From positions 1-48,821 of the forward strand of contig JAFXXD010000001.1 in assembly GCA_017542475.1 (NCBI GenBank): 48,821 bases of DNA. The letters are read 5' to 3'. Shown one piece after another: positions 1,660 to 14,667 of the stretch. Origin of the DNA: Ruminococcus sp. (GTDB lineage Bacteria; Bacillota; Clostridia; Oscillospirales; Ruminococcaceae). How positions within the stretch are numbered: position 1 is the first letter of the stretch; every line of letters starts with the position of its first letter. The notes under the pieces were generated by a model that searched no databases, was not told where the DNA came from, and worked only from the letters and a program-made list of their open reading frames with translations. A program made the translations under genes and the position numbers.

Positions 1660-2676
1660 TTAGTAATACTTGACATTATCCGTGAGCGCGTCCTGATAGT
1701 CGCTGATGTTCTCGAGTATCTTGCCCGTACCCTCTGCCACGCAGTCGAGCGGGTACTCGGCGATATAGACGGGCATACTGGTCTCGCGGTTGATGAGCTT
1801 GTCAAGACCGCGCAGGAGTGCTCCGCCGCCCGCGAGAGTGATACCGTGGTCGATTATATCCGCGGAGAGCTCGGGGGGTGTCTCCTCGAGGGTAGCCTTT
1901 ATGGCGTCGATTACCTTCGCGAGCGGCTCAACGAGGGCGTCGCGTATCTCTGCGGAATTGACGGTCACGTTCTCGGGCAGACCGTTCAGGAGGTTCCTGC
2001 CCTTTATCTCCATAGTATCCTCCTTGTCGCTCGGGAAGGCTGAGCCTATCTCTATCTTGATATTCTCGGCAGTCCTCTCGCCGATGAGGAGGTTGTACTT
2101 CTTCTTGATGTAATTGATTATAGCGGTGTCGAACTCGTCGCCCGCACAGCGTATCGAGCGCGAAGCCACGATACCTCCGAGGGCTATTACAGCGACCTCG
2201 CTCGTGCCTCCGCCGATATCGACTATCATGCTTCCCGAGGGAGCGTTCGTGGGCAGACCCGCACCTATAGCCGCCGCCATAGGCTCCTCTATGATGAGGA
2301 CATTGTTCGCGCCCGCCTTCTTGCAGGACTCCCTTACGGCGCGGCGCTCAACAGCGGTAACGCCCGAGGGTATGCAGATAATGACGTTAGCCTTTGTCAG
2401 TATCGTACCCTTCAGCGCCTTCTTGATGAACTCCTGAAGCATAGTTGTCGCGATGTCGAAGTCAGCGATAACGCCGTCCTTGAGAGGGCGCACGGCTACG
2501 ATAGAGCCGGGGGTGCGTCCGATGACCTCCTTCGCCTCCATACCGACATAGCGGGTCTTATCCGTTCTTGTATTTACGGCGACCACGGACGGCTCTCTTA
2601 TTATTATGCCCTTACCGCGCAGATATACGAGCGTATTTGCGGTACCGAGGTCTATACCGATATCCTTTGTAAACAT
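1660..2676 (-). CDS. mreB: Rod shape-determining protein MreB (actin homologue)
   Basis: A 338-residue actin-fold ATPase of normal MreB length. The phosphate-1 motif is at the N-terminus ([12 protein letters not shown]), phosphate-2 is near the middle ([13 protein letters not shown]), and the adenosine motif is [13 protein letters not shown]. MreB forms membrane-associated filaments that position cell-wall synthesis along the rod. The ATG has AAAGGAG upstream, and a separate sigma-A type promoter lies at 2711-2739. Having mreB at the head of mreBCD next to a DUF4321 gene is common in Clostridia. Confidence 0.98.
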
Positions 2677-2710
2677 TTTCTGGCTCCTTTGACTTTACTC
2701 TAACTCTACT

Positions 2711-2739
2711 ATTATAACACTAAAGCGAAGAATAGACAA
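2711..2739 (-). promoter_or_regulatory. Promoter of mreBCD
   Basis: On the minus strand TTGTCT and a perfect TATAAT are separated by 17 bases, about 35 bases upstream of the mreB ATG. This is a good sigma-A match that would give the shape operon its own start, independent of the dut and DUF4321 genes upstream. Confidence 0.75.
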
Positions 2740-2824
2740 TATTTTTCGCTGAGAAATTTATCCTTGTCGGAAATTTGCAGAGATTCCGAAAAAATTCAAT
2801 ACTGACAGCATCAAAAACTGTGGA

Positions 2825-3094
2825 TCATTTCTTGGGAGTAAAAAGCTTGGGAGCGGTGTTGTAGTACACGATGATAGCAATGATTATGAGCAGTATCTGC
2901 GAGATGTTGATGCTGAGGCTTATGCCGAATGTAAGGCTGAATATGCCGAGGTCTATCGTGCCGGGCTCGAAGGCGAAGGTCTTGGAGTAGGCGAGGAAGC
3001 TGAGTCCTGCCGCACCGTCAACGAGTCCGCCGAAGAAGCCGCCGAGTACTATGGCGCTTATTGCGAGGAATGACATATAGATTACCTTGTTCAT
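2825..3094 (-). CDS. DUF4321 family small membrane protein
   Basis: An 89-residue protein with two hydrophobic segments separated by a short loop containing SLTFGISLSINISQ, the pattern of the Firmicutes DUF4321 family, whose function is unknown. The start at 3094 is chosen over an in-frame ATG 22 codons upstream because AAAAGGAG sits at the right distance from it. It lies between dut and mreBCD, a neighbourhood in which this family often occurs, so a cell-envelope role is possible but not shown. Confidence 0.85.
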   Translation of the reverse strand: MNKVIYMSFLAISAIVLGGFFGGLVDGAAGLSFLAYSKTFAFEPGTIDLGIFSLTFGISLSINISQILLIIIAIIVYYNTAPKLFTPKK

Positions 3095-3296: not shown

Positions 3297-3734
3297 CTAT
3301 ATCCCCGATGAGCCGAAGCCGCCGCTCCCTCTCTCTGTCTCGGTGAGGGAGTCGCTGACCTCCACCTCGGGAAATATGACCTTTGTTGGTATGAGCTGGG
3401 CTATCCGCATACCGTGCTCGACGGTGAATTCCCTGCTTCCGTGATTTATCAGCGGTATGAACCACTCTCCGCGGTAGTCGCTGTCCACCACGCCTACGCA
3501 GTTCGCGAGCGACACGCCGTGCTTCGTTGACAGCCCCGAGCGCGGATATATCAGCATTGCGACGTCATTGCAGTCGCTCTCGGCAGTGAGTCCCGTCGGT
3601 ATCATCTTTATCTCGTTCGGAGCGAGAGTGACGGGCTCGTCAAGGCACGCGCAGATGTCCATTCCCGCGCTGCCCGCCGTTGCCCTCGACGGTATGACAG
3701 CCTTTTCGCTGAGCTTTTTGAATGTCAGTTTCAT
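3297..3734 (-). CDS. dut: Deoxyuridine 5'-triphosphate nucleotidohydrolase (dUTPase)
   Basis: A 145-residue trimeric-type dUTPase that hydrolyses dUTP to dUMP and pyrophosphate, keeping uracil out of DNA and feeding dTMP synthesis. The five family motifs are visible in order: AGMDICA, PRSGLSTKHG, the catalytic-Asp motif GVVDSDYRGEW, the segment around HGMRIAQLI, and the C-terminal Gly-rich lid RGSGGFGSSG. Its ATG overlaps the stop of the U32 peptidase gene by one base, so it belongs to the murC-lexA-zapA transcription run. Confidence 0.97.
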   Translation of the reverse strand: MKLTFKKLSEKAVIPSRATAGSAGMDICACLDEPVTLAPNEIKMIPTGLTAESDCNDVAMLIYPRSGLSTKHGVSLANCVGVVDSDYRGEWFIPLINHGSREFTVEHGMRIAQLIPTKVIFPEVEVSDSLTETERGSGGFGSSGI

Positions 3735-5770
3735 TATTCTATACCTCTGTAGTAAAGTCCGCGGGTGATGCTGCCGTCGGGCTTTCTGCCCGAGAGAGCC
3801 GCCGCGGTCTGCACTGAGTCCTCGTCATGGAGGAGCACCAGCCCGAAGTCCGCCCTTGTCAGCTCCGCGAGCCTGTCGCCCATATACAGCACATCGGAGT
3901 TGAGCACCTCGACGTACTCCTTCGAGCACGCGACAGGCAGCTTTCGTCCCGTGCGGTCGGTGAGGTGACCCGTGCACCTCGCACAGCCGACCTCGTTTTT
4001 TATCGGACAGTTCCGCGTGAGCATAAGCGGGAGCCTGCCGTATATGACGGCTCCGAGCGTGAGAGCGGTGCGCATTTTCGCGAACTGCTCCGCTGTCGCC
4101 TCAATCGAGACAACGCAGTCCTCAAGCCCGAGCGAGCGGAGAAATTCCGCGCTGTAGGAGTTGTACACATTGAGCGTGAAGCTGCCGTGGAGCTTCATTC
4201 CGAGTGCCCGCCCTATCGCGACGGAGTCGGGCGTGTGGCAGAAGAGCCTGTCCGCGCCGAGCTCCTTCAGCTCCGCGAGGCGGGCTGTGAGCGCGTCCTC
4301 GTCGGTGATGAACCGCGGCGGGGAGACTATGAGCTTTTCGGGCGTTATGCGGCTTATCAGAGCCTCGTCCGCGATAGCCTCGGGGACTATCACGTATTCC
4401 GACAGCTCCGCGGCGGCGATAGCCTGTTCTGCGGTGCGGCAGAGCGTCCTCAGCGGGAGCTCTCCCCCGCGGGGCTTGCGCTTTATCATAGGCAGCTCGG
4501 GGAGCGTTCCCTCCGCGTGATATCGCGGCGTATTGCGCTCGATGACCGCTTCTGTCAGCTTGTCCGCGAGCTGCCTGCGGAGCTCGTTGAGCTTGCCTGC
4601 GGGCACGAAGAGCCCGTCGCCGATGTCGGCGGTGAGGCTTCCGAGCCTGAACACGGTATCTCCGAGCTTCGAGAGCTGCTTCTCAACGGCGGCGAGGTCG
4701 GTCGGGCGGTTCTGAGCTGTATCGGGCGCGTCACCCGTGACAGTTGCCGATATATCGCCGCAAACTGCCGTTACCGTGACGGGCTCGCCCGCCCTTATCA
4801 CGGCGTGCATATCGGCTGTATGTACCTGCCTCGGCGAGCGGTAGAGCTCGTGTATCTGCGGGATAAGCGAGCGGGCGGCGGTGACGTCGTCCTTCTCGCG
4901 TACGCCGAACATATCCTGCCTTTTGCCCGTGAAATAGCCGTCCGTGAAGCCGCTGCGCGAGAATATCCCCCGCAGGAGCTGCATATCGGGCGCGTCGCCG
5001 TCAAGAGCCTTTTTCAGCTCGTTCACCGACGAAGCCACATACTCGGGGCGCTTCATCCTGCCCTCTATTTTCAGCGAATCTACGCCGATCTCGCGGAGCT
5101 CGTCCGTGCGTGTGAGCAGTGACAGGTCCTTCAGCGAGAGAGCCGCGGCGTTCCTGTCACCGACAGCCGAGAAAGGCAGACGGCAGGCTTGTCCGCAGCA
5201 GCCGCGGTTCGCCGAGCGTGAGCCTATCATCGCCGACATATAGCACTGTCCCGACACCGACATACACAGCGCACCGTGCACGAAGACCTCGACCTCGACG
5301 TCCTCGCGGCATATCCGTCCGAGCACGTCCTTTCCGAGCTCGCGCGCGGGCACTACCCTCACATAGCCGAGCTCCCGCAGCAGCCGCGCTCCCGCAGCCG
5401 TATGCACCGACATCTGCGTGGAGGCGTGTATCACCGCGTCGGGGACGATAGAGCGCATTATCTGCGCGGCGCCCCAGTCCTGCACGATGTAGCCGTCAAC
5501 TCCGAGCGCGGAGGTCGAGCGGATATACTCGGCAAAGTCCTCAGCCTCACCGTCGGAAATTATCGTATTCACCGCGAGATAGAGCCTCGCGCCGCTGCTG
5601 TGGCAAAGCCGCAGAGCCTCCGCGAGCTCCTCGTCCGAGAAGTTGGCGGCGCTGCTGCGCGCGGAAAAGCGCTTTCCGCCGACGTAAACGGCGTCAGCTC
5701 CCGCCCTTATCGCAGCCGTCAGAGCCTCGGGACTGCCCGCAGGTGCGAGTATCTCGGGCTTTTTGCTCAT
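3734..5770 (-). CDS. U32 family peptidase / RlhA-like protein with DUF3656
   Basis: A 678-residue protein beginning EILAPAGSPEALTAAIRAGA, the U32 signature, with the central Cys-rich pattern around SRSANRGCCGQACRLPF and the SLKIEGRMKRPEYV motif. The later part matches the DUF3656/collagenase-like extension seen in long members. Some relatives (RlhA, and the TrhP/TrhO-type tRNA enzymes) are RNA hydroxylation factors that use an Fe-S cluster, so modification of RNA is as likely as proteolysis. It overlaps zapA by four bases (ATGA) and dut by one, a tightly coupled cluster that is common in Firmicutes. Confidence 0.92.
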   Translation of the reverse strand: MSKKPEILAPAGSPEALTAAIRAGADAVYVGGKRFSARSSAANFSDEELAEALRLCHSSGARLYLAVNTIISDGEAEDFAEYIRSTSALGVDGYIVQDWGAAQIMRSIVPDAVIHASTQMSVHTAAGARLLRELGYVRVVPARELGKDVLGRICREDVEVEVFVHGALCMSVSGQCYMSAMIGSRSANRGCCGQACRLPFSAVGDRNAAALSLKDLSLLTRTDELREIGVDSLKIEGRMKRPEYVASSVNELKKALDGDAPDMQLLRGIFSRSGFTDGYFTGKRQDMFGVREKDDVTAARSLIPQIHELYRSPRQVHTADMHAVIRAGEPVTVTAVCGDISATVTGDAPDTAQNRPTDLAAVEKQLSKLGDTVFRLGSLTADIGDGLFVPAGKLNELRRQLADKLTEAVIERNTPRYHAEGTLPELPMIKRKPRGGELPLRTLCRTAEQAIAAAELSEYVIVPEAIADEALISRITPEKLIVSPPRFITDEDALTARLAELKELGADRLFCHTPDSVAIGRALGMKLHGSFTLNVYNSYSAEFLRSLGLEDCVVSIEATAEQFAKMRTALTLGAVIYGRLPLMLTRNCPIKNEVGCARCTGHLTDRTGRKLPVACSKEYVEVLNSDVLYMGDRLAELTRADFGLVLLHDEDSVQTAAALSGRKPDGSITRGLYYRGIE

Positions 5771-7689: not shown

Positions 7690-9228
7690 TCAATCAAGAT
7701 ACGGGCAATATTCGTATATACCGTTTCTGATGTTTGTTTGTGTCTTTTCCCAGCTGTATCCGGATTTAATGTAATCATCAACAATATGATTAATGATCTG
7801 AGTCCGTATTGTTTCGTCATACGGGGTTATGAGTCCCTTGTTGTTTATTGCCTTTGCGTTTTTGTTGAGCTCAGATAAATAATTCTGACCTCCGAGATTT
7901 TGGGAAATTGTATTATTGAATACTGTTCCTTCGGCTATCAGTTTGTCCATCACAGCCATATTGTTGACAAATTCCGGACGGCAGACGGCATATGATCTCA
8001 TCTGGTCATTGTTAATGCAGGCGGATAGAATGAAATCTCTTGCTTCTTCTCCGTTGTCTGTGGAAGGATTTACGAGAGCCATTGTGCCGCCCCAGTAATA
8101 TGGCTGCGGTCCCTGACATACAGCCCACTTGCCGTATGTAGCGCCGTTTTTGCCTCCGGCAGCATCAAGGAAGAAGCCGCCAAAGCCCCATGTAGGAACG
8201 AAGTAGCCCATACAATTGCCTGATTCTCCGGCAGCAGTCCATTCCTCGTACCACTGACCGTTCTTTGTGACACCTCCGCAGTTCCAGAGAGTTTTGGCTA
8301 TATCTGCAAACTCCTTGACATCGGAGCCTAAGTTGATTTTGTTGTTGACGACATATGGCTGTGTCCGACCGAAACTGTAAGCTTGCCACATACCACCGAC
8401 GGAATCAGCGAGTGCAACTCTTCCGCCTGTTTTTGACGCGACAGTCTTAGCAGCAGATGCGAAGCTGTCCCAATCGCCTATTGCAGCCTGCATCTCTTCG
8501 GGAGAAGAAACGCCGAGGTACTGCTTTGCAAGGTCGGTCCTGTATCCGAATCCGCCCGGAGACGGATCCCATGAGAGCCCCTTCAGAACTCCGGTGCTGT
8601 CTTTGCCGTACTCTAATGTATACGGGTACATATTGGCAGTATCAGCATCGGTTATACCAATAGCAGAAAGCGGAGCAGTGCGGGAATCATCATTGATATA
8701 TTTCAAACCCCAGTATGGCTCACAGAAATATACATCAAGGTCACGTCCGCTGTTGAAATACTGGTCATATTTTTCCGGTGCTGATCCTCCTCCGACACCG
8801 AAATATACGAAACGCAGACCGTCGAATTTATCGTCAAGCAGATCGTCGAAGGTAGATTCATAGTCAAGCCCCTTCCACTGAGCGATGAGGTAAGGAACTT
8901 CACTGGCGTTCCATGCAGCGATCGTGAATGTGTCGCCTCCCGTTTCAAGGCTCACATTGCCCGAACCACCATGAGACGGATCATAGTCAGGACCGTAGGC
9001 CATAAAGTCGGAGAGCGACATAGTGCTGCCTGACTGGGTAGATAGATAGGAATAATAGCTTAGTATTACCGAGGCGTCCTTGGCGTCGATCTTGCCGTCG
9101 CCGTTGATGTCGCCGAATTTCGAGGCGGCATTTGTGAACTTCGGAGAAGCGCCGAGACCTGTCGTGAATGAGACTGCGCTCACGAGACAGAGCGCCGCTA
9201 TTCCTGCTGCTGTACGTTTAATATTCAT
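7690..9228 (-). CDS. Secreted solute-binding-like protein with N-terminal dockerin repeat
   Basis: A 512-residue protein with an Ala-rich signal peptide (about 1-30, no lipobox Cys) followed at residues 39-63 by a single dockerin-type EF-hand. The calcium ligands fit D40, N42, D44, D48 and D51 in GDINGDGKIDAKDASVIL. A Gly/Ser linker (about 80-95) leads to a full solute-binding-protein domain paralogous to the lipoprotein downstream. It therefore replaces a membrane lipid anchor with a half-dockerin. It sits 12 bases after lexA behind AAGGAGG. Whether one repeat is enough to bind a cohesin cannot be told from sequence. Confidence 0.85.
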   Translation of the reverse strand: MNIKRTAAGIAALCLVSAVSFTTGLGASPKFTNAASKFGDINGDGKIDAKDASVILSYYSYLSTQSGSTMSLSDFMAYGPDYDPSHGGSGNVSLETGGDTFTIAAWNASEVPYLIAQWKGLDYESTFDDLLDDKFDGLRFVYFGVGGGSAPEKYDQYFNSGRDLDVYFCEPYWGLKYINDDSRTAPLSAIGITDADTANMYPYTLEYGKDSTGVLKGLSWDPSPGGFGYRTDLAKQYLGVSSPEEMQAAIGDWDSFASAAKTVASKTGGRVALADSVGGMWQAYSFGRTQPYVVNNKINLGSDVKEFADIAKTLWNCGGVTKNGQWYEEWTAAGESGNCMGYFVPTWGFGGFFLDAAGGKNGATYGKWAVCQGPQPYYWGGTMALVNPSTDNGEEARDFILSACINNDQMRSYAVCRPEFVNNMAVMDKLIAEGTVFNNTISQNLGGQNYLSELNKNAKAINNKGLITPYDETIRTQIINHIVDDYIKSGYSWEKTQTNIRNGIYEYCPYLD

Positions 9229-12007: not shown

Positions 12008-14341
12008 TTACTTTGAATACTTCGCCTTGTCCATCTCGCGGATAGCCGCGCGGCGTATCTTGCCGCTTCCGACGGTCTTGGGCAGCTCGGACACGAACTC
12101 GACGACGCGCGGGTACTTGTAGGGAGCGGTGCGGTTCTTGACGTACTCCTTTATCTCCTTGACGAGCTCCTCCGTGCCCTCGGTGTCCTTAGTCAGGACG
12201 ATAGTCGCCTTGACCACCTGACCGCGTATCTCGTCGGGGACGCCTGTTACCGCGCACTCAAGCACGTAGGGGAGCTCCATAAGGACACTCTCTATCTCGA
12301 ACGGTCCGATACGGTAGCCCGATGACTTGATGACGTCATCGACGCGTCCGACATACCAGAAGTAGCCGTCCTCGTCAACCCACGCGGTATCGCCCGTGTG
12401 GTAGTAGCCCTCGCGCCATGTCTCGGCTGTGTTTTCCTCGTCGCCGTAGTAGCAGAGCGCGAGTCCGGGCACGCCCTCCTCCTTGAGCTTTATGCATATC
12501 TCGCCCGTCTCGCCGACGCCTGCGGGAGTACCGTCGGGCAGGAGCACCTGCACGTCATACTGCGGATTGGGCTTGCCCATACTGCCGGGCTTGGGCTCCA
12601 TACCGACAACGTTTGCGATAGAGAGGGTAGTCTCGGTCTGACCGAAGCCCTCCATAAGCTTGATACCCGTTGCCTTGAGGAACTGGTAGAAGACCTCGGG
12701 GTTGAGAGCCTCGCCCGCGATGCAGGCATATTTCAGCGACGAGAGGTCGTATTTCGCGAGGTCCTCCTTGATGAAGAAGCGGTACATAGTGGGCGGAGCG
12801 CAGAACGATGTGACGTTGTACTTCTTGAACATCGGGAGGATATCGTCTGCGTGGAAGCGGTCGAAGTCGTAGACGAAGACTGCCGCCTCGCACATCCACT
12901 GACCGTAGAGCTTGCCCCAGAGAGCCTTGCCCCAGCCCGTATCCGAGATAGTGAAGTGCAGACCGTTCGGGTCGGCGTTCTGCCAGTAGCGGGCAGTCAC
13001 GTAGTGACCGAGCGGGTACTGGTAGCTGTGGAGCACGAGCTTGGGATTGCCCGAGGTACCCGAGCTGAAGAAGATGAGCATCGGGTCGGTGCCGCAGGGA
13101 GTCTCAGCCGTGCGCTCGAAGTGGGTGCTGTACGCGGAGAGCTCGGCGTTGAAGTCGTGCCAGCCCTCGCGCTGACCGTTTACGAGTATCTTTGTCTTCA
13201 TCGACGGAGATACGGCGCAAGCCTTATCGACCTCGTCGGCTACCTCGCCGTCAGCCGTGCAGACGATAGCAGACACCTCAGCGGAGTTGAAGCGGTATTC
13301 GAGGTCGTGCTCCTTGAGCATATTCGACGCGGGTATAACGAGAGCTCCGATTCGGTGGAGCGCGATTATCGAGAACCAGAACTGGTAGTGGCGCTTTAAG
13401 ATAAGCATAACGCGGTCGCCCTTTTTGATACCGAGCGACTTGAAATAATTCGCGGTCTGGCAGGAATATTTCTTGATGTCCCTGAAGGTGAAGCGACGCT
13501 CGTTGTGGTCAGCATCGACGTATATCATCGCGGTCTTGTCGGGACATTTCTCCGCCATAGCATCAACGATATCGTAGGCGAAGTTGAACTTGTCCTGATT
13601 CTCGAAGCTGACGGCGCTGAGCACGCCCTCCTCGTTTGTCTCGCACTTGACGAACTTCTCGGCAACAGGGTGGAGCAGTCCCGCCTTGTCAACGTTCGTG
13701 AGGTGGTGCTCTGCGACGTGCTCGCGGTACTCAGCCATACCCGACGTGCCGTGCGGAGCCATAACAAAGGCGTATATCTCGCAGTCCTCGCCGCCGAGCG
13801 CGACCTCGTCATGCGGCATCGAGCTGTCATAGTAGATAGAGTCGCCCTCGTGGAGTATCTCGGTATGCGAGCCGACCGTCATTCTCAGCGTGCCCTTGAG
13901 GACGATGTCCATTTCCTGACCCGCGTGGCTCGCCATATGGAGCGGCTCGGAGAGAGCCTCCTCGGAGTAGGGGATAACGACGTGGAAGGGCTCGACGGTC
14001 TTGTTCTTGAACTTCGAGGCAAGGCGGTTGTAGGCGAAGCCCTTTCTGCGCACGATAGGTACGCCCTCGCCCTTTCTTGTCACGGTATAGCCGCTGAGCT
14101 CGGGGCTTGCGCCCTCCATAAGGTCGGTTATCTCGACGTTGAATTTATTCGCGCATTTATAGATAAACGTGAAGCTGAAATCGAGCTCGCCCGATTCGAG
14201 CTTCTTGTAGTCGTCAACTGTGTTGTCTGTTATTTCTGCCATTTCCTCCACGGAAATGCCGAGGTCTTCACGCAGGCGGGCAATTCGCTCGGCGACCTCC
14301 CTGATCCTTACTTCCGCATTCTGCAATGTGACTTCGCTCAT
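12008..14341 (-). CDS. HTH-cupin-acyl-CoA ligase fusion protein (AMP-forming)
   Basis: A 777-residue three-part protein. Residues about 8-65 form an XRE-type helix-turn-helix (LREDLGISVEEMAEITDN). Residues about 105-190 form a cupin with HASHAGQEMDIVLKG-like sequence and a DSIYYDSSMPH motif. The remainder is an AMP-forming acyl-CoA synthetase with the P-loop FFSSGTSGNPK, EGFGQTE, HTGDTAW, GRVDDVIKSSGYRIGP and the catalytic Lys in GSGKIRR. The ligase part is closest in style to acetyl- and medium-chain acyl-CoA synthetases (DTGWGKALWGKLYGQW). It would activate a short carboxylic acid to its CoA ester. The start at 14341 has AAAAAGGAG; longer frames run into the T-box leader and are rejected. 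The substrate is not known from sequence. Confidence 0.9.
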   Translation of the reverse strand: MSEVTLQNAEVRIREVAERIARLREDLGISVEEMAEITDNTVDDYKKLESGELDFSFTFIYKCANKFNVEITDLMEGASPELSGYTVTRKGEGVPIVRRKGFAYNRLASKFKNKTVEPFHVVIPYSEEALSEPLHMASHAGQEMDIVLKGTLRMTVGSHTEILHEGDSIYYDSSMPHDEVALGGEDCEIYAFVMAPHGTSGMAEYREHVAEHHLTNVDKAGLLHPVAEKFVKCETNEEGVLSAVSFENQDKFNFAYDIVDAMAEKCPDKTAMIYVDADHNERRFTFRDIKKYSCQTANYFKSLGIKKGDRVMLILKRHYQFWFSIIALHRIGALVIPASNMLKEHDLEYRFNSAEVSAIVCTADGEVADEVDKACAVSPSMKTKILVNGQREGWHDFNAELSAYSTHFERTAETPCGTDPMLIFFSSGTSGNPKLVLHSYQYPLGHYVTARYWQNADPNGLHFTISDTGWGKALWGKLYGQWMCEAAVFVYDFDRFHADDILPMFKKYNVTSFCAPPTMYRFFIKEDLAKYDLSSLKYACIAGEALNPEVFYQFLKATGIKLMEGFGQTETTLSIANVVGMEPKPGSMGKPNPQYDVQVLLPDGTPAGVGETGEICIKLKEEGVPGLALCYYGDEENTAETWREGYYHTGDTAWVDEDGYFWYVGRVDDVIKSSGYRIGPFEIESVLMELPYVLECAVTGVPDEIRGQVVKATIVLTKDTEGTEELVKEIKEYVKNRTAPYKYPRVVEFVSELPKTVGSGKIRRAAIREMDKAKYSK

Positions 14342-14360: not shown

Positions 14361-14633
14361 TAAAATAAAAAAGCCCGTCTCAAAGTAAAAACTTTGAGAC
14401 GAGCATCATTAACGATAACCCGCGGTACCACTCAAATTGTGCCGCTATTGCGTAACACCACTTCAGACTCCGACAAGCCCTATTCATTAACGCAGACTCA
14501 CGGAAGCGCTTACTGAAACTTTCGGCACTTCGGCTCAGAAGGGATACATTGCATTGCTTATCACCGACTCACACCGACCGTCGGCTCTCTGTTGACATTG
14601 GCAACACTCTGCTTGTCTTCCTCACAGCTTATG
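14361..14633 (-). promoter_or_regulatory. T-box riboswitch leader of the acyl-CoA ligase gene
   Basis: The minus-strand leader has all the parts of a T-box. Stem I carries the distal AGAGAG / GGUCGGUG bulge pair (about 14565-14590) and a lower stem closed by GUGUUGC/GCAAUGC. The kink-turn-like CUGAG lies at 14533-14537. The conserved T-box UGGUACCGCG is at 14421-14430, and a terminator follows. The specifier lies in the loop AAUGUAUCCC (14541-14550). Its register is uncertain: anchoring on the lower stem gives AUC (Ile) and anchoring on the upper stem gives GUA (Val), while UAU is in between. Uncharged tRNA would stabilise the antiterminator and switch the ligase on. Confidence 0.9.
14366..14404 (-). 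terminator. T-box regulatory terminator
   Basis: A 14-bp stem (GCTCGTCTCAAAGT paired with its complement, one G-T pair) with a four-T loop and then a run of six T on the minus strand. It lies between the T-box sequence and the ribosome binding site, as expected for the termination state of the riboswitch. Confidence 0.9.
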
Positions 14634-14638
14634 TTTGG

Positions 14639-14667
14639 ATTATATCACGCGGAAATGATTTTGTCAA
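14639..14667 (-). promoter_or_regulatory. Consensus promoter driving the T-box leader
   Basis: TTGACA and TATAAT, both perfect, with a 17-base spacer on the minus strand. The leader would start near 14632, giving about 290 bases before the ATG. The strength of the promoter suggests that control is exerted by the riboswitch. Confidence 0.92.

Follow-up and report, generated by a model that had tools for sequence, protein, structure and literature searches.

The window analysed here, a 48,821-nucleotide stretch of a draft Ruminococcus sp. genome, carries on its minus strand a gene for a fusion of an HTH (XRE) domain, a cupin and an AMP-forming acyl-CoA ligase, preceded by a promoter and a riboswitch leader. 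In the direction of transcription, the features are:

14639..14667, minus strand: sigma-70-type promoter, TTGACA-17-TATAAT, with 12/12 consensus matches
14392..14634, minus strand: T-box leader RNA with Stem I, Stem III and antiterminator (RF00230, 111.6 bits, model positions 1-219 of 219)
14543..14545, minus strand: specifier codon AUC (isoleucine), as read by a fixed-offset rule, orthologue conservation and own-genome controls
14421..14430, minus strand: T-box sequence UGGUACCGCG with the bulge predicted to pair with the tRNA acceptor end (RF00230 alignment)
14373..14404, minus strand: intrinsic terminator with 14 pairs, a loop of 4 and a U run (hairpin and RF00230 alignment)
12008..14341, minus strand: gene for the HTH(XRE)-cupin-AMP-forming acyl-CoA ligase fusion, a predicted 2-methylbutyryl-CoA ligase (Pfam; closest solved chain 3ETC, MacsMa)

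The start codon at 14341 is preceded by AAAAAGGAGAG. On one side the neighbours are spoVG (opposite strand), murC and lexA, on the other a metallophosphoesterase and a histidine kinase; a local operon was rejected, the ligase gene being solitary among housekeeping genes. The window's minus strand also encodes, at 7690-9228 next to lexA, a 512-aa protein whose dockerin match is weak (21.2 bits, under cut-off) and, at 3734-5770 beside a zapA-like gene, a U32 peptidase/collagenase-type protein for which TrhP is the best NCBIfam model (under cut-off).

The leader, at 14634-14392, is the sole Rfam match within the window at or above the gathering score, reaching 111.6 bits against a gathering score of 93 (E 5.9e-24) in a covariance-model search. 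The antiterminator bulge at 14430-14427 reads UGGU, in line with the UGGN motif of the T-box class. The 3' strand of the antiterminator, which runs to 14392, is also the 5' strand of the terminator; since the two structures have the stretch 14404-14392 in common, they are mutually exclusive, as the T-box mechanism requires. A looser promoter scan, set at 9/12 matches, gave a mean of 0.6 matches per shuffle. The consensus promoter, full T-box leader, 14-bp terminator and ligase fusion gene named in the original prediction were all found again (12/12 bases, RF00230 at 111.6 bits, 14 pairs and the Pfam domains, respectively).

The specifier was read as the codon ending 6 nt before the closing GAG of Stem I, an anchor preferred since the UAGC inside the GUAGC of Val leaders is misleading. 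Eleven T-boxes were found in the genome, the window leader included, and 8/8 with a recognised target read the fitting codon: AAC before asnS, GUA before valS, UGC before cysS (read only with a relaxed filter), CUC before leuA, GCU before alaS, UGG before both trpE and a trpB-like gene, and UUC before pheS. The valS and leuA controls (L004 and L007) each contain another anchor motif, from which GUU and GGU would be read; the first anchor was used. The remaining two leaders, reading UAC (L002) and ACC (L006), have no recognised target, and the window leader is the sole Ile-reading T-box among the 11. GUA (Val) and UAU (Tyr) both overlap AUC in the window sequence UGUAUCCC, so that another register of the same loop could be imagined. 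Neither of these triplets is conserved, however: at the specifier place L046 reads CUGAUC and L023 UUAUC, AUC is the sole constant triplet among orthologous leaders while the surrounding bases vary, and in Val ligase leaders GUA sits at the very position of AUC. Both alternative registers were rejected on these grounds and retain next to no credibility. Because the own-genome controls fit at the same offset and only AUC is constant among orthologues, the register can be regarded as settled at the level of sequence: the codon is AUC, neither GUA nor UAU, and by the eight controls and its conservation it fits the regulated function, as is expected of a T-box. An isoleucine or valine specifier had been predicted, with tyrosine not excluded; isoleucine stands, valine is dropped for the window leader (it is used by paralogous ligases), and tyrosine is dropped altogether, with UAU in 0/36 ligase T-boxes.

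Those 36 T-boxes belong to a family set of 74 loci, a part of the homologue matches, and comprise 31 AUC, 3 GUA and 2 GUC readings and nothing else. The comparison of orthologue specifiers that had been suggested at the outset thus gave a constant AUC in orthologues and, across the family set, Ile or Val codons with no unrelated amino acid. The count derives from 37 rows, L041 at 1163 having been left out as a motif inside coding sequence. At 40 family-set loci the motif search found no T-box; among them are L037, whose T-box was read separately and counted, and L036, from the ilvC-containing genome G115, where a degenerate T-box (4022-4191, 50.3 bits) precedes a cupin and a ligase that are split into two genes. 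A named-genome set, made of the best 80 loci among the matches listed, yielded 62 ligase-associated T-box matches, 57 of them AUC; the other five are L165, in which the specifier arm is deleted, three leaders that run off their contigs, and L224, where a second copy of the ligase stands behind GUA. No T-box was found within 500 nt at 17 of these best 80 listed loci despite available sequence, two others being too short, and 16 of the 17 share Thr486 with a T-box-free paralogue encoded on contig C44 of the window's genome. Rows without a specifier reading are L164, L210, L239 and L293 (truncated) and L165. The last, a Ruminococcus leader (2550-3000), has a promoter, apical Stem I, T-box and terminator and lacks the Stem I specifier arm, through either a natural deletion or an assembly fault. 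On the ligase tree the specifier label is clustered: it needs a minimum of 3 changes, 2 of which well-supported branches make unavoidable, whereas shuffled labels need 4.8 on average. The Val specifier may have arisen more than once, but the three changes could also stand for one gain and two losses.

The fusion protein has 777 residues and the Pfam domains HTH_19, Cupin_2, AMP-binding and AMP-binding_C; PF00501 (210.8 bits) and PF13193 (77.3 bits) both exceed their cut-offs, as expected of an AMP-forming acyl-CoA synthetase. The nearest named records among the matches listed are assigned to Ruminococcus flavefaciens or Ruminococcus sp., at 89-93% identity, and many have a ruminant stomach as their source. 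Many relatives encode the HTH-cupin part in a separate upstream gene (seen as split matches), which hints that the fusion unites an enzyme with its regulator. Among solved structures the chain 3ETC (MacsMa) comes closest, at 675.7 bits over residues 249-773, the next reaching 366.9 bits. MacsMa is described as preferring 2-methylbutyrate, with Trp259 as a pocket residue (PMC10455477). In the 3ETC alignment, with numbering anchored on the YHTGD motif at 431-435, Trp259 corresponds to W475 of the window protein, which is kept in 77/77 rows compared, window included. The best NCBIfam model is MbcS (NF047394), at 459.9 bits against a cut-off of 850 and so below equivalog level. An acetate model is second in rank (355 bits) and a benzoate model matches too, both under cut-off; as the acids accepted across this superfamily of AMP-forming ligases are diverse, an acetate or aromatic-acid ligase with an incidental T-box might be considered. 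The conserved MacsMa-type tryptophan and the vor/ilvE context of relatives argue against such a ligase and make it very improbable.

Two further ligases of the genome deserve mention. The C44 paralogue (L042, G000:C44:35784-38078) is likewise an HTH-cupin-ligase, 63% identical to the window protein and with a counterpart, L219, in R. flavefaciens SAb67; no T-box was found at either locus, by Rfam search in the case of C44. The C44 protein has Gly471, and because it shares the pocket residue of the window ligase, it may overlap that enzyme in function. A third ligase (L043, G000:C19:2300-3880) has Ala471 and groups with the GUA-T-box ligase L061; no T-box was found before it, and it is a candidate for the isobutyrate ligase of the genome.

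In the family genomes G105 and G037 two ligases stand in tandem, the first behind an AUC leader and the second behind a GUA leader, followed downstream by a CbiA/ParA-like protein, a VorB-type oxidoreductase subunit (above cut-off in G105) and beta and gamma subunits, the latter two under their cut-offs. The G037 locus also has ilvE, and the G105 locus a further T-box, reading CUC, before a leuA-like gene; in G079 the tandem pair and vor are present, with no T-box by Rfam. Searching with the Val-type ligase gave a match at E < 1e-100 in 194/295 genomes of the order, and the specifier is GUA or GUC in 29 of the best 30 of those loci, 26 of them read by the rule and 3 by eye, while the remaining one is truncated. 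A tandem set of 20 chosen loci, drawn from six other families, has AUC before the first ligase in 20/20 and GUA before the second in 20/20 (18 by rule, 2 by eye), the second copies mostly repeating the 30 best Val-type loci, so that the two sets are not independent. The specifiers read by eye as GUA, which the rule misread, are those of L285, L289, L291, L313 and L315. In this tandem set vorB follows in 19/20 loci, the exception ending at its contig, ilvE is present in 15/20, and a CUC (Leu) leader in 9/20, with a leuA-like match adjoining in 7. AUC, GUA and CUC leaders occur there together with vorB and ilvE, so that a single locus can combine Ile, Val and Leu T-boxes with an isoacid-to-amino-acid pathway. 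The small CbiA/ParA-like P-loop protein, which has weak Pfam scores, adjoins the vor genes at L053:7439-8089, L054:7032-7751, L055:10127-10906 and L147:5447-6139 and is also present in 20/20 tandem loci (L308-L327), in L315 up to the contig end; it might help to assemble or mature the oxidoreductase.

In the window's genome ilvC was not found, the only trace being a 21.6-bit fragment against a cut-off of 226, an absence that alone is weak in an assembly 94% complete; the profile matched in all 14 control genomes. Its vorB lies on contig C36 (541 bits against a cut-off of 399) next to beta and gamma subunits under their cut-offs. Across 119 family genomes, ilvC is present in 8/32 with a T-box ligase and in 62/87 others (Fisher 7e-6), and vorB in 29/32 and 35/87, respectively (Fisher 7e-7), with descent ignored in both tests and the T-box check covering only part of the ligases of the 87 'other' genomes. 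Pieces under cut-off were accepted as showing presence for ilvC in G011 and for vorB in G084, and the three T-box-ligase genomes of the 32 in which vorB above cut-off is missing are G048, G100 and G109. Among genomes at least 90% complete the figures are 8/26 against 46/64 for ilvC and 23/26 against 26/64 for vorB. Within the genus, grouped by orthologue (at least 73% identity) and not by T-box, ilvC occurs in 8/26 genomes with an orthologue and 29/34 without (3e-5, descent ignored). T-box control of the ligase therefore goes with the absence of ilvC, as a correlation.

These patterns bear on the fate of the acyl-CoA product. MbcS, the best NCBIfam model at 460 bits (under the cut-off of 850), lets Staphylococcus aureus build lipids from salvaged 2-methylbutyrate and isobutyrate (PMC10026030), and the window ligase might by analogy feed 2-methylbutyryl-CoA into branched-chain (anteiso) fatty acids, the Ile T-box merely signalling a shortage of branched-chain carbon. 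Against this reading, the tandem loci of relatives place vor, ilvE and leuA-like genes next to T-box ligases and also contain Val- and CUC-reading T-boxes, and ligase control correlates with ilvC loss; a role in lipid synthesis is accordingly improbable. The original prediction gave the ligase a branched-chain (or aromatic) acid to activate for amino-acid synthesis. As far as the branched-chain acid is concerned, it gains from the vor/ilvE loci, from MacsMa as nearest structure and from the link between T-box control and ilvC absence; the aromatic option finds no support, UAU occurring in 0/36 family-set ligase leaders.

A residue four positions before W475 may be linked to substrate size. In the family set, position 471 is Gly in 28/31 AUC ligases and Ala in 5/5 Val ligases (Fisher 1.5e-4; counted by lines, 6.7e-4 with four Val lines or 3.3e-3 with three, the lower number being an alternative because L061 and L077 share a supported branch). 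The exceptions among the 31 AUC ligases are L067 (Met), L069 and L081 (both Ala). In the tandem and order sets every AUC copy with a reading has Gly471 and every Val copy Ala471 (20 and 20 in the former; 29/29 in the latter). Column 471 was picked after a scan in which 10 columns separate tandem Ile from tandem Val copies (at one of these every Ile copy has a gap), and it is the sole separating column that is both Ala in three other Val ligases and seldom Ala in AUC ligases; column 486 is also Ala in those three, but equally in 14/28 other AUC ligases.

Whether the specifier names the substrate is a separate matter. The ligase could have a broad C4-C5 isoacid specificity and serve valine and leucine as much as isoleucine, the specifier denoting the limiting amino acid: MbcS takes both acids with KM below 10 uM (PMC10026030), and the sole Val-reading T-box of the window's genome precedes valS and no ligase. 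The presence in 20/20 chosen tandem loci of one ligase for Ile and another for Val, each with a T-box of its own, and the variation of residue 471 with the specifier weigh against broad specificity, which we consider unlikely though well short of far-fetched. Strict C5 specificity is not assured either, because MbcS uses 2-methylbutyrate and isobutyrate alike (PMC10026030).

From the leader, specifier, terminator and gene, their conservation, the locus context in relatives and a genome with vorB and without detected ilvC, all obtained by computation, we propose that uncharged tRNA-Ile very probably switches on the activation of 2-methylbutyrate for reductive carboxylation to isoleucine. The transcription-antitermination T-box would monitor whether tRNA-Ile(GAU) is charged. 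Under isoleucine shortage the uncharged tRNA would, we infer, base-pair at two sites, the AUC of Stem I and the UGGU of the antiterminator bulge; the antiterminator would thereby be stabilised, the terminator would not form and the ligase gene would be transcribed. The ligase would then convert exogenous 2-methylbutyrate, supplied by the community, with ATP and CoA to 2-methylbutyryl-CoA, which VOR (2-oxoacid:ferredoxin oxidoreductase, encoded elsewhere in the genome), presumably running in the direction of reductive carboxylation, would turn into 3-methyl-2-oxovalerate, and a putative branched-chain aminotransferase of this genome would yield isoleucine. As vor carries no T-box among the 11 found in the window's genome, the switch would control the first step only. 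No tRNA-Ile was found in this draft genome among the 30/39 tRNA matches readable by ARAGORN, nor by an anticodon-arm pattern that is itself insensitive, having missed it in 3 nearly complete relatives among 7 genomes tried. In rumen fermentation, 2-methylbutyrate is described as a precursor of isoleucine and isobutyrate as one of valine (PMC7356843, citing Robinson and Allison 1969).

It is tempting to extend this proposal to an order-wide, tRNA-sensing regulon for isoacid assimilation in several families, an extension towards which we lean with some reserve. One locus would carry a T-box each for Ile, Val and Leu, and these would control the 2-methylbutyrate ligase, isobutyrate ligase, VOR, aminotransferase and leuA; the regulon would replace the IlvC route, so that branched-chain amino acids are drawn from the acids of other community members. 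The specifier would predict the ligase substrate, and a Gly-to-Ala change at 471 would trim the pocket by one methyl group, distinguishing Ile from Val ligases.

Cellulolytic ruminococci need branched-chain volatile acids, and we know of no enzyme named for the activation of these acids, nor of its control. The proposed switch gives this requirement a testable genetic basis. A codon in the RNA names an amino acid and thereby the likely substrate of a vaguely annotated ligase, which opens a route to assigning substrates across a large enzyme family from sequence. The combination of T-box ligase and vor present with ilvC absent may further serve as a cross-feeding signature for rumen and gut genomes, and related gut bacteria have the same kind of arrangement with valine and leucine switches.

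Among known systems, the leader agrees with the transcriptional T-box riboswitch (RF00230) in its full model match, specifier loop, UGGU bulge and antiterminator/terminator exclusion, and differs in its target, an AMP-forming acyl-CoA ligase of a proposed isoacid pathway. The main texts of the T-box target surveys PMC2494555 and PMC11477304 (C. difficile) hold no word beginning with CoA, and that of the TBDB paper (PMC7778990) none beginning with acyl or CoA; the word T-box is likewise absent from the main text of the MbcS paper (PMC10026030). A T-box joined with isoacids or with such a ligase was not found in the open-licence literature, as judged mostly from listings together with PMC2494555, PMC11477304 and PMC2700814. 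The RNA class is thus known, and the ligase target and the three-tRNA isoacid locus seem new as far as the open-licence literature searched extends. The Geobacter leuA T-box resembles the CUC-reading leaders of relatives as a Leu T-box before leuA, although the passage describing it has neither an isoacid ligase nor vor (PMC2700814). MacsMa of Methanosarcina acetivorans (3ETC) shares the ligase domain (249-773, 675.7 bits) and Trp259 as W475, whereas the window protein adds an N-terminal HTH-cupin part of about 240 residues and T-box control. MbcS of Staphylococcus aureus (NF047394), a salvage enzyme for 2-methylbutyrate and isobutyrate, is the best NCBIfam model, but the window protein reaches 460 bits against a cut-off of 850, and MbcS feeds lipids. 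With the formation of isoleucine from 2-methylbutyrate in rumen bacteria (Robinson and Allison 1969, via PMC7356843), finally, the window locus would share precursor, product and ecological group, whereas the gene and its regulation are proposals of this analysis.
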